Shown one piece after another: positions 491 through 7,041 of a DNA stretch of 7,041 nt. The notes beneath the pieces were generated by a model, which worked only from the letters and a program-made list of their open reading frames with translations, searched no databases and had not been told where the DNA came from. Source of the stretch: Candidatus Latescibacterota bacterium (GTDB lineage: Bacteria; JAAXHH01; JABIQT01). How positions within the stretch are numbered: position 1 is the stretch's first letter; each line of letters opens with the position of its first letter. Position numbers and translations under genes: made by a program. Location of the stretch: contig JABIQT010001022.1 in assembly GCA_018667995.1 (NCBI GenBank), forward strand, positions 1 through 7,041, read 5' to 3'.

Positions 491-510
491 TGAACTGGGG
501 TGTACTGGGG
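491..510. repeat. Tandem 10-mer TGWACTGGGG, two copies
   Basis: TGAACTGGGG (491-500) is followed directly by TGTACTGGGG (501-510), one mismatch in ten. The second copy runs into the left arm of the terminator-like hairpin. A binding site or simple slippage duplication are both possible. Confidence 0.6.
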
Positions 511-534
511 GGAAGTGTCTGCTTCCCCCCTTTT
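507..534 (+). terminator. Intrinsic-terminator-like hairpin, rightward
   Basis: GGGGGGAAG (507-515) and CTTCCCCCC (522-530) pair perfectly over 9 bp around a 6-base loop, followed by TTTT on the plus strand. There is no T tract on the minus-strand side. This fits a rho-independent terminator for rightward transcription. The oddity is that no plus-strand gene is recognisable upstream inside the window. It may stop read-through or antisense transcription crossing the leftward gene, or end a small unannotated RNA. Confidence 0.6.
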
Positions 535-731: not shown

Positions 732-1211
732 ATGATGTCAGAAGAAACCGCGACGCTGTTGATCGTCGATGATGAGGAAATGGTGCTGACAAGTCTCAGT
801 GCCTTTCTCATGCTTGAGACCGATTACAATGTCGAGACGTTTACGTCGGCCAATGCTGCGATTGAATTCGCGGAGGGCAATCGCTTCGATTTGGTCATCT
901 CTGATTATCTGATGCCGGAAATGGATGGGATTTCGCTGCTTGGAAGGCTCAAGGAAATCCTGCCGGAGTCGCCTCGTATTTTGTTGACCGGATATACCGA
1001 TAAAGAGAACGCAATTAAAGGTATTAACGAGGTCGGGCTGTTTCAATATATCGAGAAACCTTGGGACAACGAACAGCTTCGCCTCGTTATCCGTAATGGT
1101 CTTGAGAAGCAACAACTGCTGTCCCAACTTCAGCAGAAGATAGGCGAGATCAATCAGGCATACGGTGACTTACAGAGCATCCAAAAAGAGATTCTGAAGA
1201 CTTTTGCCTAG
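732..1211 (+). CDS. Stand-alone CheY-like response regulator with coiled-coil tail
   Basis: A 159-residue protein made of one receiver domain (about 7-125) and a short Q/E/L-rich, probably coiled-coil tail (126-159), with no DNA-binding or enzymatic output domain. The acidic pocket D13-D14-E15, phospho-acceptor D58 (in ISDYLMPEMDG), T86 and K109 (EKPW) are all present, so it should accept phosphate. The ILLTGY...AI..INE.GLF.Y.EKPWDNE pattern is that of HupR/RpfG-type receivers. It is about 60% identical to the receiver of the phosphatase gene at 3165 (my ungapped count: 72 of 120). It is the first gene of the operon, 35 bases before the next. AGGAG at 724-728 lies 3 bases from the ATG at 732 but 6 from the second ATG at 735, so translation may start at 735. 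Likely a phosphate sink or adaptor for the kinase encoded at 1688; the role is inferred. Confidence 0.9.
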   Translation: MMSEETATLLIVDDEEMVLTSLSAFLMLETDYNVETFTSANAAIEFAEGNRFDLVISDYLMPEMDGISLLGRLKEILPESPRILLTGYTDKENAIKGINEVGLFQYIEKPWDNEQLRLVIRNGLEKQQLLSQLQQKIGEINQAYGDLQSIQKEILKTFA

Positions 1212-1246
1212 GATGGCATATACGGCTGTCCGGCCCGGAGAAGCGC

Positions 1247-1684
1247 ATGCTGACTGTCATTGAGAAAGTCATATTCCTGCAGAATGTGGATGTGTTTGCT
1301 GACGTACCTGCTGAACAGCTGTCATACCTTGCTGCCATAGCCGAAGAAGTAACCATTCCCACGGGTGAACCGGTATACAAGGTCAATGAGACCGCCGATT
1401 CCATGTATGTCGTGCTCGAGGGGCGGGTTCGACTATATCGGGAGGATATGGAAATCGGTGAGGTCGAGAAGAAAGGTGCGCTCGGTGCCTGGGCACTTCT
1501 GGACGATGAACCGCGCGTTGTTACTGCGGAGGCAGTAGAAGATACAGATCTCCTTAGAATTGATAAGGATGACTTTATTGACCTCCTGTCCGACCATGTA
1601 GAAATCACGCAGGGCGTACTGATGACCCTTACTAAGCGCTTGCATGGCCTGGCCGGACGCGTCGGCGTAGAGCCTCGAAAGTAA
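1247..1684 (+). CDS. Stand-alone cyclic-nucleotide-binding-fold protein, atypical phosphate cassette
   Basis: A 145-residue protein that is essentially one Crp-type cNMP-binding domain. The N-terminus MLTVIEKVIFLQNVDVFADV is the usual helical lead-in. The beta-roll includes MYVVLEGRVRLYRED (53-67), and the cassette GALGAWALLDDEPR (77-90) is followed by a C-terminal helix (about 108-133). There is no helix-turn-helix, so it is not a complete Crp/Fnr regulator. In the cassette, the Gly-Glu of cAMP-binding members reads G80-A81, so the Glu that contacts the ribose is replaced. R90 is kept, while the Ser/Thr-Ala after it is V91-V92. Binding of cAMP or cGMP is therefore doubtful; a protein-interaction or non-nucleotide role is possible. 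GGAGAAG (1237-1243) is the ribosome site. It lies between the receiver and kinase genes, 3 bases before the kinase start, so it is probably part of the same signalling unit. Confidence 0.88.
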   Translation: MLTVIEKVIFLQNVDVFADVPAEQLSYLAAIAEEVTIPTGEPVYKVNETADSMYVVLEGRVRLYREDMEIGEVEKKGALGAWALLDDEPRVVTAEAVEDTDLLRIDKDDFIDLLSDHVEITQGVLMTLTKRLHGLAGRVGVEPRK

Positions 1685-1687
1685 CCA

Positions 1688-3178
1688 ATGCCAAAATCCT
1701 CCTGCCGGATTTCCTCTATAGTAACATTCCTGATGACGCTGGGTTTGGCCTTGGCCTTTATCGGTCTGACCGGTGAATGGACATCGGGCATGGGGCTGGT
1801 CGTTAAGATCCTTCTATCGCTACTGGTAAGTGGACTCGCCGCCGCATTGTTGTATTCGTTCATGCGGACGCCCATAGTAGTTAACGAGGAAGTGACCACG
1901 CGGACGCAAAAGCTGGCGGCCTCCAATCAGGTGTTGAAGTCAGAAATCAGTGATTGGGAGCGTGCTGAGGTGGCTTTGCAGGAGAGCGAAGCGCGGTTCC
2001 GATCGCTTTTTCAGGCTACATTCGAAGGTATTCTCATTCATGATCAAGGGCGCATTCTTCACGCCAATGAGACCGCTGCCGCCATGGTTGGATATGAGGT
2101 TCAGGATGTCATAGGTATGAATGTCGTAGAACTGGTCACCTCGGAATCGCAGGAGCTCCTTAAGCAGATATTTCAGGAATTGGCGGAGGATCCGCGGGCC
2201 AAGCGCGATGCCTTTGAACTTGTTGTGAAACGCCGAGATGGTAGTACGTATCATGCCGAGATCCTCGGCAAGCCTTTTACATGGGAAGGGAAGGACGTTC
2301 GTGTGGCGGCATTTCGGGATATCACCGAGCGGCGCCAGGCACAGCTGACGCTTGAGCAGGCCAATGAAGTCCTGGAGCACAAAGTAGATGAGAGAACTAC
2401 GGAGCTCATGGAGCAGAGAGCACACTTGGTTCAGTCGGAAAAAATGGCGGCATTGGGTCAACTAGTTGCCGGCGTTGCGCATGAGATCAACACGCCCCTT
2501 GGCGCCATGAAGAGCAATAACGATGTTTTCATCCGGACCGTTGACAAGCTGCGCACAATCGTGGAAGCGGAGGACATGCCACAGGAAATACGAGAACATA
2601 GTCAGATGCACCGAATCTTTGACAGTGTTGAGAAGCTCAATCACATCAATAGAGATGCGGTTGAGCGTATCGTCACTATCGTAGGAAGTCTCCGAAAATT
2701 CGCAAGGCTGGACCAGGCTGAAGTGGATGACGTGGATATCCACGAGGGGATTGATAGCACACTGACTTTAGTTCATCACCAGCTCAAGAACCGGATAGAG
2801 GTGAACAGGAACTTTGGCGCCCTCCCTCTGGTCAGTTGCCATCCCGGCCAAATCAATCAGGTCTTGATGAATATTCTGGTAAATGCCAGTCAGGCTATAG
2901 AAGGCAATGGTGAGATTACTATTGCCACCTCTACAATGGGTGAGAATTCTGTAAGGATTGATATTTCGGATACGGGGAAAGGGATTGACAAGGATCAGCT
3001 CGCACGGATATTCGATCCCGGCTTCACAACGAAAGGATCGGGCGTGGGCACTGGTCTGGGATTGTCGATCGTACATCAGATCATAGACGAACACGGCGGC
3101 TCTATAGAAGTCGAGAGCGAACCCGGCGAAGGATCCACCTTCAGCATCATCTTACCGGTGCAAAATGACGCAACTTGA
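1688..3178 (+). CDS. Membrane-anchored PAS sensor histidine kinase
   Basis: A 496-residue kinase. Two hydrophobic segments (about 9-28 and 36-58) are joined by only a few residues, so there is an inner-membrane hairpin with no periplasmic sensor domain. A coiled-coil linker (about 68-98) leads to one PAS domain (about 99-216: FRSLFQATFEGILIHD, then RDITERRQ). A second coiled coil precedes the dimerization/phosphoacceptor domain, with the phosphorylated histidine at H265 (GVAHEINTPLGAMKSNND). The ATPase domain has the N box (390-404, N395 and N399), G1 DTGKGID (428-434), F box FDPGFTTKGSG (442-452) and G2 GTGLGLS (454-460). All catalytic motifs are intact. It has no receiver of its own; the two cognate receivers are probably the gene at 732 and the fused one at 3165, whose start overlaps this gene by 14 bases. 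The sensed signal is cytoplasmic or membrane-borne by inference. No strong Shine-Dalgarno is visible, so translation may be coupled to the upstream gene. Confidence 0.95.
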   Translation: MPKSSCRISSIVTFLMTLGLALAFIGLTGEWTSGMGLVVKILLSLLVSGLAAALLYSFMRTPIVVNEEVTTRTQKLAASNQVLKSEISDWERAEVALQESEARFRSLFQATFEGILIHDQGRILHANETAAAMVGYEVQDVIGMNVVELVTSESQELLKQIFQELAEDPRAKRDAFELVVKRRDGSTYHAEILGKPFTWEGKDVRVAAFRDITERRQAQLTLEQANEVLEHKVDERTTELMEQRAHLVQSEKMAALGQLVAGVAHEINTPLGAMKSNNDVFIRTVDKLRTIVEAEDMPQEIREHSQMHRIFDSVEKLNHINRDAVERIVTIVGSLRKFARLDQAEVDDVDIHEGIDSTLTLVHHQLKNRIEVNRNFGALPLVSCHPGQINQVLMNILVNASQAIEGNGEITIATSTMGENSVRIDISDTGKGIDKDQLARIFDPGFTTKGSGVGTGLGLSIVHQIIDEHGGSIEVESEPGEGSTFSIILPVQNDAT

Positions 3179-4409
3179 CGGCCAGACACTCGAACGTTCA
3201 CCCGTTGTAGTGATCGTCGATGACGAAGAGATGGTGACCAGCAGCCTTGGTGCGTTCCTGGAATGGGAGACGGACTATAAGGTGGAGACCTTCCTGTCGC
3301 CCGCGGACGCCTTGAATGTATTGCGGGACCGTCCGGCTGATATTGTTATTGCTGACTTTCTAATGCCCGAGATGAATGGTCTTCAGTTTCTTGCGAGGGT
3401 CAAGGACCTGTATCCGGATGTTCCTCGCATTCTACTCACCGGATATGCAGACAAAGAACACGCGATAAAAGCGATCAATGAAATAGGCCTATTTCATTAT
3501 TTCGAGAAACCCTGGGACAATGAGGCAATTAAGCTCGTAATCCAGAATGGTCTGGAAAACAAAACTGTAAAATCTGCTCTCGAACAAAAACTGCACGAGC
3601 TTGATCATGTACTGCTCCAGCGGGACGCTTTGACGGAGCAGAATGAGATATTCCATCAGGAGCTGTTGCTTGCACGGCAGGTCCAGCAGAGCATGCTCCC
3701 CAGCTGCTTGCCTAACACGCCAGATGTAGTCTTTTCAGCTGAATACGAACCAGCCCTCGGCATTGGGGGTGACTTCTATGACATTCAGCCACTGTCCGAT
3801 GGTCGTATAGCTTTACTTGTTGCCGACATGACAGGGCATGGTGTCCAGGCTGCATTGAGTACGGTTCTGCTCAAGATCGGCTTTGCCCCCTGCGCCAATA
3901 CGTCCGCTGGACCGGTAGAGATTTTGAACAATCTGAATGCTGTTCTGTATCAAGGCCTTCCCAAGGAGCTACCCAGCAGCATTTTTGCTGCGGCCGCCGT
4001 TGCCGTAATAGACCCTGCAAACAGTACGGTTCACATAGCGAATGCAGGTCTGCCGCAACCACTCCTTCTGAAGAGGGAAAAAGGTGAAGTGGAGCGTATT
4101 ACCGTTAGCGGTATGATCCTGGGGATATTCGACGATACCACGTATGTACCGTCGGATGAAGCTGAATTACGCATAGATACCGGTGATTTTCTATTGATTT
4201 ACTCGGATGGTTTGGCCGAAGCCGTCAACGAACAGAATGAACTCTATGAGATTGGTTCTATACGAACCACCATGTTGGCCCACGCTGAGCTGGAAGGTTC
4301 GGAAATACTCAAACAGCTGGTCACTTCGGTCCGCTCCTACGCGCGAAAAGGGCACGAGTGGGATGATCTGACAGTTCTGGGCATCGACTTTAGTAAGCGG
4401 GACGGGTAG
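3165..4409 (+). CDS. Response regulator fused to PP2C/SpoIIE-type serine phosphatase (RsbU-like)
   Basis: A 414-residue two-part protein. The N-terminal receiver (about 13-131) has D19-D20-E21, phospho-acceptor D64 (IADFLMPEMNG), T92 and K115. A helical, probably coiled-coil linker (about 132-178, ending LARQVQQSMLP) leads to a PP2C-type phosphatase domain (about 188-410). Its metal-site motifs are GGDFYD (201-206), VADMTGHG (219-226), YSDGLAE (346-352) and WDDLTVL (399-405), so catalysis is expected to be intact. In known cascades such phosphatases remove phosphate from a serine of a STAS antagonist, releasing it to bind an anti-sigma kinase. Here phosphorylation of the receiver would switch the activity. 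The ATG overlaps the kinase gene by 14 bases and has no clear ribosome site, suggesting translational coupling and matched expression of kinase and phosphatase. A STAS-like gene starting at 6981 is a possible substrate. The substrate itself is inferred. Confidence 0.95.
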   Translation: MTQLDGQTLERSPVVVIVDDEEMVTSSLGAFLEWETDYKVETFLSPADALNVLRDRPADIVIADFLMPEMNGLQFLARVKDLYPDVPRILLTGYADKEHAIKAINEIGLFHYFEKPWDNEAIKLVIQNGLENKTVKSALEQKLHELDHVLLQRDALTEQNEIFHQELLLARQVQQSMLPSCLPNTPDVVFSAEYEPALGIGGDFYDIQPLSDGRIALLVADMTGHGVQAALSTVLLKIGFAPCANTSAGPVEILNNLNAVLYQGLPKELPSSIFAAAAVAVIDPANSTVHIANAGLPQPLLLKREKGEVERITVSGMILGIFDDTTYVPSDEAELRIDTGDFLLIYSDGLAEAVNEQNELYEIGSIRTTMLAHAELEGSEILKQLVTSVRSYARKGHEWDDLTVLGIDFSKRDG

Positions 4410-4464: not shown

Positions 4465-5568
4465 ATGGCGATCCCCCCGTATACGGATATCATCAAGAAC
4501 CTGCCGGCCATGGTTCCGTTTGTGGGGCCGGAGACCATAGAACGGAATCAGGGAAAAGCCTTTCTCGCACGAATCGGCGCGAATGAGAGCGTCTTCGGCA
4601 TTTCTCCGCTTGCCCGCACTGCCATGGCCGACGCAGCCTGTGAATCCTGGATGTATTGCGATCCCGAAGGGTACGATCTCCGCTTGGCCCTTGCCAAAGC
4701 GAACGGCGTCGAAATCGAAAACGTGATGCTTGGAGCGGGAATCGATGACATCCTGGGGGTAATTGTCCGGACTTTTATGAATCCAGGCGATACGGTTGTG
4801 GCTTCCTATGGATCCTATCCGACATTCGCTTACCACGTTCATGGTTTTGGTGGTGTTCTCAAGACGGTGCCATACCGGAACGATGCCAATGATCTTCAGG
4901 CCTTGGCTGATGCGGCGTCCGAGCATGGTGCGAAAATACTGTTTCTGGCGAATCCCGATAATCCAACCGGTTCGTACTATCCGCGCGAAGACATCGAAGA
5001 TTTGATCGCCCGGCTTCCAGACGGGTGCCTCTTTATTTTTGACGAAGCCTATCTCGATTTTGTGCCCGAGGGATCGGTCGTTCCTATGGTGTGTGACGAT
5101 CCAAGAATCGTCCGTGTCAGGACTTTTTCGAAAGCCCATGGTATGGCTGGTGCACGGGTCGGCTATGCCATAACTCACCCCGAAATCGTCCAGACTTTCA
5201 ATCGAATCCGACTACACTTTGGCGTGAATCGAATGGCGCAGGAAGGGGCCTTGGCCTCTCTGGGAGATAAGAAATTCATCGAAGATGTCATTCGGAAGGT
5301 CAATGAGGGTCGGCTCGAATATGAGTCACTCGGCCGAGAACTTGGTATTCCTACGCTGCCCTCCCGAACCAATTTCGTATCCTTTGACCTGAGCACGAAA
5401 GAACGGGCAGTCGGTGTCATGACATCATTGATAGAGCAAGGTGTCTTCGTGCGTATGCCGGGCGTTCCCCCTCTGGATCGCCTTGTTCGCATAACCATAG
5501 GCACTGAGCGTGACAGAGCTCTATTCGCCGAAGCTCTGCGAGGCGCATTGTCGAGCGGCCCGGATTGA
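4465..5568 (+). CDS. PLP-dependent aminotransferase, class I/II, HisC-like
   Basis: A 367-residue fold-type I aminotransferase, near the normal length for histidinol-phosphate aminotransferases. Visible motifs are ANES (39-42) near the N-terminus, the Y-x-D-PEGYDLRLALA segment (64-77), NPDNPTG (163-169), FDEAYLDF (192-199, with D193 and Y196 for the cofactor ring), and TFSKAHGMAGARVGY (220-234). In the last, K223 forms the Schiff base and R231 should hold the PLP phosphate. R342 in VRITIGT is placed to bind the substrate carboxylate. Family membership is clear, but the substrate is not. No other histidine-biosynthesis gene is in the window, so HisC itself should not be assumed; aromatic amino-acid or phosphonate/amino-alcohol transaminases belong to the same group. 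AAAGG (4451-4455) is 9 bases before the ATG. The 55-base gap after the phosphatase gene has no terminator I can see, so co-transcription is likely. Confidence 0.92.
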   Translation: MAIPPYTDIIKNLPAMVPFVGPETIERNQGKAFLARIGANESVFGISPLARTAMADAACESWMYCDPEGYDLRLALAKANGVEIENVMLGAGIDDILGVIVRTFMNPGDTVVASYGSYPTFAYHVHGFGGVLKTVPYRNDANDLQALADAASEHGAKILFLANPDNPTGSYYPREDIEDLIARLPDGCLFIFDEAYLDFVPEGSVVPMVCDDPRIVRVRTFSKAHGMAGARVGYAITHPEIVQTFNRIRLHFGVNRMAQEGALASLGDKKFIEDVIRKVNEGRLEYESLGRELGIPTLPSRTNFVSFDLSTKERAVGVMTSLIEQGVFVRMPGVPPLDRLVRITIGTERDRALFAEALRGALSSGPD

Positions 5569-5688: not shown

Positions 5689-6447
5689 ATGACGGCAGTA
5701 GAACATAAATTCTTTGAGCGTAACGGCTATCTTGTTGTTAAGGATGCGCTGACGCCAGATGAGATTGCCTTCTATCAAGGCATCTACGACAGGGATCGTA
5801 AGGACACGGCCTACTTCTGGAGAGAGATAGGCCATGGTGAACATCAGACTGTTAACTGCGACTCACTGGTATCAAGTCCTGAATTCGACCAATTAATCAG
5901 GCATCCTATGCTCCTGCCACGGGTTGAGACTCTTCTTGGTGGTCCAGCCTGTCTCGCTGAAATATGCCTTCGGCATATGCGCCCACATCGCGAGGAACCC
6001 GTCCAGAAATGGCACCGGGACGCACCGCACGCTCTGAGCCATCCTCTGCGTGCTGGTTGGATTCACCTTCTGATATATCTCTCGGATGTGGACGACAACA
6101 CCCACTGCTTTTCAATTTCTCCAGAAGCCTGTGACGATCCGATTCTCGATCAGGATGCCCAACTTGCGCAGAAAGGCGCGGTGGATATTCACGGAGCCGC
6201 AGGTACCGCTGTGCTCTTCAACCTCTCTGTCCTACATACGGCCAACGTGCGACAAACCGATTTTGAGCGAAAGACCGTGCAAACGTACTATGGCCCTCGC
6301 TCGGGCCCGATTCTGAGCCATTATTCCCTGGTACCTACAGAACTCTGGCGCGACCATCCAAACACGGAGGTGCGAGCCTTTTACGGGAATCTGAACGACA
6401 AGTCGAAACGATACGCTGCCCGTTTCTCCAACTTGGGCAAACAGTAA
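5689..6447 (+). CDS. PhyH-family Fe(II)/2-oxoglutarate-dependent dioxygenase
   Basis: A 252-residue protein of the phytanoyl-CoA dioxygenase (PhyH) superfamily. The N-terminus FFERNGYLVVKDALTPDEI (8-26) is the typical opening of the family. The iron-binding triad is H109-x-D111 (KWHRDAPH) and H183 (VLHTANVR). R194 lies 11 residues after the distal His, the same spacing as the 2-oxoglutarate-binding Arg in human phytanoyl-CoA hydroxylase. The set of catalytic residues therefore looks complete, and a hydroxylation or related oxidation of a small substrate is expected. Members act on acyl-CoAs, amino acids, ectoine, phosphonates and others, and nothing here picks one. The ATG has an in-frame TAG shortly upstream (5671-5673), which supports this start; only a distant AAAGG (5669-5673) is seen as a ribosome site. 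The gene follows the aminotransferase by 120 bases on the same strand and may work with it on an amino-acid-like compound. Confidence 0.9.
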   Translation: MTAVEHKFFERNGYLVVKDALTPDEIAFYQGIYDRDRKDTAYFWREIGHGEHQTVNCDSLVSSPEFDQLIRHPMLLPRVETLLGGPACLAEICLRHMRPHREEPVQKWHRDAPHALSHPLRAGWIHLLIYLSDVDDNTHCFSISPEACDDPILDQDAQLAQKGAVDIHGAAGTAVLFNLSVLHTANVRQTDFERKTVQTYYGPRSGPILSHYSLVPTELWRDHPNTEVRAFYGNLNDKSKRYAARFSNLGKQ

Positions 6448-6980: not shown

Positions 6981-7041
6981 ATGTTACGGATTGCCAGGGA
7001 TACCACGGATGAGATAGCAGTTCTGTCTTTGAAGGGGAAAC
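6981..7041 (+). CDS. Probable STAS-domain anti-sigma-factor antagonist, first 20 residues (cut by right edge)
   Basis: An ATG at 6981 is preceded by a strong AGGAGA (6970-6975) at 5 bases spacing, the best ribosome site in the window, and stays open to the edge. The 20 visible residues include DTTDEIAVLSLKGK, which resembles the first two beta strands of STAS-domain anti-anti-sigma factors (pattern ...IAVLSL.GKL...). If so, the protein is a likely substrate of the PP2C phosphatase encoded at 3165: its conserved serine would lie further downstream, outside the window. Only 20 residues can be read, so the domain call is tentative and another small beta-rich protein is possible. A 533-base gap with palindromes separates it from the dioxygenase gene, so it probably has its own promoter. 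Confidence 0.5.
   Translation, partial: MLRIARDTTDEIAVLSLKGK

Follow-up and report, generated by a model that had tools for sequence, protein, structure and literature searches.

Four adjacent genes on the plus strand of a 7,041-base stretch of DNA from a Candidatus Latescibacterota bacterium (contig JABIQT010001022.1) encode a stand-alone receiver (REC), a cyclic nucleoside monophosphate (cNMP)-fold protein, a membrane PAS histidine kinase (HK), and a receiver-SpoIIE/PP2C phosphatase (REC-PP2C). We suggest that these genes would make up the cytoplasmic signaling side of a conserved module, with NTT-HEAT, a transporter-like protein encoded elsewhere in the same genome, as its membrane partner, and we put the probability of this reading at roughly 55%. 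Comparison of gene neighborhoods showed that a block with the order NTT-HEAT, cNMP, (HK), (REC-PP2C), REC is conserved across phyla, and the composition of the block suggests that a transporter-like receptor is coupled to protein dephosphorylation. All of the parts are of known kinds; what is new is how they are combined and that the cNMP protein has an altered pocket. An earlier, sequence-only reading of this DNA did not recognize the arrangement as a named system, and in agreement with it, the open-licence papers searched contain no description of the full module, the earlier description being partial (NTT-HEAT with a cyclic-nucleotide-binding domain, or cNBD).

The window, meaning the whole stretch analyzed, is an entire contig (C63) of a 6.06-Mb genome (G000) in 1165 contigs. 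The stand-alone REC (732..1211; 159 aa; Pfam Response_reg 2.6e-25) is followed by the cNMP protein (1247..1684; 145 aa; Pfam cNMP_binding 1.6e-17), the HK (1688..3178; 496 aa; Pfam PAS, HisKA, and HATPase_c, 4.8e-27), and REC-PP2C (3165..4409; 414 aa; Pfam Response_reg 6.5e-23 and SpoIIE/PP2C 6.2e-40). Open reading frame (ORF) coordinates and Pfam reproduced exactly the gene order, strand, domains, gaps of 35 and 3 bases, and 14-base overlap first described from the letters of the sequence. The catalytic motifs of the HK are intact (H265 and the N, G1, and G2 boxes), and two hydrophobic stretches at its N-terminus (approximately residues 8-28 and 34-59) are predicted to be transmembrane. Both receivers have intact catalytic residues (Asp58/Thr86/Lys109 and Asp64/Thr92/Lys115). 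REC-PP2C belongs to the REC-PP2C response regulators (RsfR/RsbY/HsbR type) by virtue of an N-terminal receiver with a phospho-acceptor Asp and a C-terminal SpoIIE/PP2C domain with metal-binding motifs; its PP2C motifs (GGDFYD, DMTGHG, SDG, and WDD) are intact, and it is likely to be the output enzyme of the four-gene set. The cognate HK gene lies next door and overlaps it, and the same pair was found at loci L060, L064, L065, L068, L119, L131, L133, and L144.

Conservation of the block and its proposed membrane partner

NTT-HEAT, the proposed partner missing from the window, is a protein of about 930 aa in which HEAT repeats are joined to a TLC ATP/ADP-transporter-like membrane domain that matches the solved ADP,ATP carrier 9j3n (E 1.2e-6). 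Overlooked in the sequence-only reading, it is the most constant neighbor of the cNMP gene, lying directly upstream on the same strand in 45 of the 48 cNMP loci outside the window, with most gaps below 100 bp. The three exceptions are genome G001, where REC lies in between, and loci L198 and L199. The window's own genome encodes an intact NTT-HEAT, 58% identical to that of G001, on contig C791 beside a metallophosphoesterase gene, and an Omp85-like barrel paired with a kinase-like lipoprotein on contig C937; because NTT-HEAT and this envelope pair sit on those contigs, the unit would be spread over three contigs (C63, C791, and C937) in this genome. Around paralogous NTT-HEAT genes on contigs C192 of G000 and C34 of G013 (32-33% identity), no module genes were recognized, except that on C34 a truncated HK-like ORF follows at a distance of about 1.2 kb.

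We examined 16 genomes of the window's phylum, 82 of the phylum of a Caldithrix genome, 132 of a third phylum (that of G173), and a broad sample of 384, and genes within the loci were called by homology, since greedy ORF calling hid some cNMP genes beneath antisense ORFs. The gene set is kept in at least three phylum-level groups, which supports the initial proposal of a single signaling unit. When conservation of the gene order was checked in relatives, the gene set held and the proposal was not refuted, but the stand-alone REC precedes cNMP in just two cases, the window and G001 (of the same taxonomic order), and elsewhere it is last in the block or directly after cNMP. At a contig end in G001, NTT-HEAT is followed by REC (69% identity in the alignment) and then by cNMP (67%). 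The full series of NTT-HEAT, cNMP, HK, REC-PP2C, and REC on one strand was seen in G389, G452, and G453 of the Caldithrix phylum and in G173, with about 1 kb between cNMP and HK in two of those loci (L064 and L065). In G173's phylum the receiver was found in 33 of 132 genomes, whose loci repeat the block either with or without HK or REC-PP2C, and the broad sample contained it in 10 of 384 genomes, counting the window's genome and G001.

Within the Caldithrix phylum, 15 of 82 genomes carry REC-PP2C orthologues (37-50% identity) and 17 carry the stand-alone receiver (18 matched, one solely via its REC-PP2C). Most of these REC-PP2C orthologues stand alone (L052-L063), and most of their genomes carry an NTT-HEAT-cNMP-REC block elsewhere. 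The two proteins co-occur even when unlinked (11/15 versus 6/67, Fisher p = 8.7e-7, a value that is indicative because species are not independent). Both NTT-HEAT and REC-PP2C are broken in G013, a case of joint decay: the REC-PP2C remnant lacks its first 244 residues, and the NTT-HEAT remnant, on another contig, is missing internal sections. The remnants lie at L023:7654-8316 and L086:2874-4156; next to the NTT-HEAT remnant, the lipoprotein and a single-domain NTT look intact. A contig search found one close relative only, on a 5.6-kb contig, and plasmid records gave weak matches only. In several Caldithrix-phylum genomes a gene for a PP2C-containing protein is convergent to the NTT-HEAT-cNMP-REC block (L188:3582-6416, a PDZ-GAF-SpoIIE protein, and L190, L191, L192, and L194).

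Several observations weigh against the module as we have drawn it. Many loci hold only NTT-HEAT, cNMP, and REC, with HK elsewhere and PP2C not linked, which means that the four genes need not occur together. The window itself is without one module gene, NTT-HEAT not being adjacent. At L198:4056-9887 and L199:1655-7525, cNMP-REC occurs without NTT-HEAT, near a TonB-type receptor, a binding protein, and a kinase (the families, read in L198 alone, are TonB receptor, ABC_sub_bind, and a HAMP/sCache kinase). Finally, most loci were collected with the receiver as query, so the presence of the receiver in them is by construction.

Part of the block has been described before. The relevant passages of a 2017 paper (Major, Embley and Williams; PMC5381601) note NTT-HEAT genes with a cNBD gene a few bases downstream, as in the 45 of 48 loci here, as well as NTT-HEAT-cNBD fusions, and describe NTT-HEAT proteins as widespread in bacteria, cyanobacteria and Chlamydia among them; in contrast to the present module, those passages mention no histidine kinase, receiver, or PP2C. 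The module supplies likely signaling partners of NTT-HEAT (the HK, both receivers, the phosphatase, and a cNMP adaptor with an altered pocket), and the role of ATP/ADP-translocase-like proteins in free-living bacteria becomes directly testable.

Proposed mechanism and partner switching

We propose that the HK would phosphorylate both receivers and that the phosphorylation state of REC-PP2C would set its Ser/Thr phosphatase activity, in either an activating (as in HsbR and RsbY) or an inhibiting (as in RsfR) direction. HK to REC-PP2C pairs have been proven for RsfSR (PMC10950880) and HsbR (PMC6482189), and their biochemistry makes phosphotransfer to REC-PP2C likely here, with the direction of control differing between the precedents. 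No component is better conserved than the stand-alone REC (51-69% identity in alignment A3), which ends in a conserved C-terminal helical tail; because it has no output domain, we suggest that it would tune the pathway, as a phosphate sink or through mixed dimers. In a tree of 65 rows, stand-alone and PP2C-linked receivers formed two clades (100/99, with bootstrap not fully settled and some long branches), and each receiver of the window fell in its expected clade. The existence of two clades implies that the split is older than the spread of the module and that the receivers are ancient paralogues. The cNMP protein, for its part, may dock on the HEAT domain of NTT-HEAT as a split form of the known NTT-HEAT-cNBD fusions, and it would relay the state of the transporter to the HK and receivers, or the reverse, instead of sensing cyclic AMP (cAMP). 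Docking is the most economical reading because such fusions are known (PMC5381601).

A different output was suggested in the sequence-only reading, which took a gene at 6981 to encode a STAS protein. REC-PP2C would then act by classical partner switching, dephosphorylating a STAS anti-sigma-factor antagonist, perhaps the product of that gene, and freeing a sigma factor as in RsfSR, RsbKY, and HsbR. Partner switching by a REC-PP2C and its cognate kinase is known in Mycobacterium, Bacillus, and Pseudomonas, and in G039 (Caldithrix) a REC-PP2C orthologue is followed by an HATPase_c_2 gene (RsbT/RsbW-like) and an RsbX-like PP2C gene (locus L009). However, no other REC-PP2C locus in that phylum has such neighbors. 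The gene at 6981..7041 (plus strand) lies 2.5 kb away, beyond two metabolic genes, and is cut by the contig end; its first 20 codons had no Pfam match, and the STAS label could not be confirmed. Neither a STAS gene nor an anti-sigma-kinase gene was recognized in other cluster loci, BLAST recognized no RsbT/RsbW-like gene in any cluster locus, and in linked loci with the downstream side read, the size of the genes that immediately follow REC does not fit STAS. We find no support for partner switching through the gene at 6981 and regard this route as somewhat unlikely, although an unlinked STAS partner of REC-PP2C is possible. L009:1-4474 also holds a histidine kinase, making it a compact partner-switching-like cluster in a Caldithrix metagenome-assembled genome.

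The known systems differ from the NTT-HEAT-linked module in other respects as well. RsfS/RsfR of Mycobacterium and RsbK/RsbY of Bacillus cereus likewise combine an HK with a cognate receiver-PP2C phosphatase, but they govern STAS/RsbW/sigma switches, whereas here no such partners are linked and there is an extra receiver, a cNMP protein, and NTT-HEAT. Among the partner switches HsbR/HsbA of Pseudomonas and CrsR/CrsA of Shewanella, HsbR shares the receiver and PP2C domain; HsbR and CrsR have their own kinase/anti-sigma domain, whereas REC-PP2C of the window ends after PP2C.

The altered cNMP pocket

The cNMP protein, at 145 aa, is a cNMP domain alone, with no C-terminal helix-turn-helix or other DNA-binding domain. 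It therefore shares its fold with CRP/FNR-type proteins but lacks both their DNA-binding domain and their pocket Glu. From CRP and PKA, the pocket Glu is known to serve the ribose and the Arg to serve the phosphate. The pocket motif of the window is LGAWALLDDEPRVV, as against the canonical FGE.AL...PRSAT, and its family departs from the canonical Glu/Arg cassette FGE...PRSA. None of 32 orthologues has Glu at the ribose position (T in 20, V in 5, A in 4, S in 2, and I in 1), and the residue that follows is an invariant Trp (32/32). Thirty of the 32 retain the phosphate-binding Arg, and the Ser/Thr after it has become V, L, or I. The absence of Glu, together with the invariant Trp beside it, makes ordinary cAMP binding doubtful, and as far as pocket residues can tell, cAMP is probably not the ligand.

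These residues bear on the possibility that the protein is a genuine cyclic-nucleotide sensor through which cAMP would set kinase or transporter activity, along the lines of what the 2017 paper proposes for NTT-HEAT-cNBD proteins (PMC5381601). The retained Arg is consistent with such a role, as is the predicted structure, a high-confidence cNMP fold (pLDDT 91, 32 sequences) whose best structural matches in the PDB include CRP- and PKG-type domains. Yet the lost Glu, the Trp, and the V/L/I substitution all point the other way, and GE...RSAT is retained in three further cNMP domains from the same phylum that served as controls (L078, L088, and L079): two cNMP proteins of the window's genome, one of them a cNMP-PP2C fusion, and the fused NTT-HEAT-cNBD of G013, whose canonical pocket contrasts with that of the split clusters. 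We consider a cAMP sensor unlikely on this evidence and prefer a pocket-altered adaptor within the NTT-HEAT module. The cNMP-SpoIIE/PP2C fusion of that genome (L078:4065-5231; 388 aa), with its canonical pocket, lends independent support to the coupling of a cNMP domain to PP2C.

That the four genes are independent and neighbors by chance is very improbable: the assembly is fragmented and the order is unlike that in other phyla, but in several phyla these families again lie in tight blocks, and these conserved neighborhoods already refute it.

Envelope genes and other features of the window

Two phyla, as well as that of the window, repeatedly show a gene for a lipoprotein of 520-615 aa close to the module; within the window's phylum it was found only in 3 of 16 genomes, those with NTT-HEAT and module sequences. 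Kinase motifs (a KFDP lysine motif, an HxDxxxxN loop, and DFG) are present in 18 of 18 aligned members, and each of the 17 sequences extending to the column of the lipobox Cys has that residue. The family (L024:6411-8228 and relatives, beside a small Omp85 barrel) had no Pfam match above threshold. Its model (pLDDT 83) resembles kinase folds, with Z scores of 14.0 for CtkA, 13.2 for Fam20C, about 13 for PI4KII, and 9-11 for HipA/HipT; Foldseek alone was weaker (E ~3e-5, low TM). Genes for a small Omp85 barrel and for phosphatases that are exported or in the membrane (metallophosphoesterase and PAP2) are also found repeatedly near NTT-HEAT, and DUF2252 proteins with a signal-peptide-like start take the place of the lipoprotein near REC in two Caldithrix-phylum loci (L064:2399-3637 and L065:5539-6801). 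Because the kinase-motif lipoprotein, the barrel, and the phosphatases recur in this way, NTT-HEAT, often with a single-domain NTT, might export ATP or a related nucleotide to the exported lipoprotein kinase, while the cytoplasmic HK, receivers, PP2C, and cNMP protein would gate the transporter. We regard this extension as speculative and rather improbable, but the pairing of a transporter with an exported kinase-fold lipoprotein raises the testable idea of phosphorylation outside the cytoplasm.

The remaining features of the window lie on either side of the four genes. Downstream on the plus strand are a pyridoxal phosphate (PLP) aminotransferase gene, PRK08153-like (4465..5568), which also adjoins the broken REC-PP2C in G013, and a PhyH-type dioxygenase gene (5689..6447); both fall outside the module in other phyla. 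Upstream, a terminator-like hairpin on the plus strand at 507..530 (GGGGGGAAGTGTCTGCTTCCCCCC, then TTTTC; 10-pair stem) is suggestive of a boundary that would set the operon apart from the DNA 5' of it. As a class, terminator-like hairpins in the window were not enriched (4 found versus 3.3 expected in shuffles), promoter and terminator scans were at chance level overall, and an Rfam search gave no match. Just 5' of the operon, a fragment on the minus strand (2-340) has a sub-threshold HTH_36 match (E 0.0019) and is possibly part of a mobile-element replication protein.

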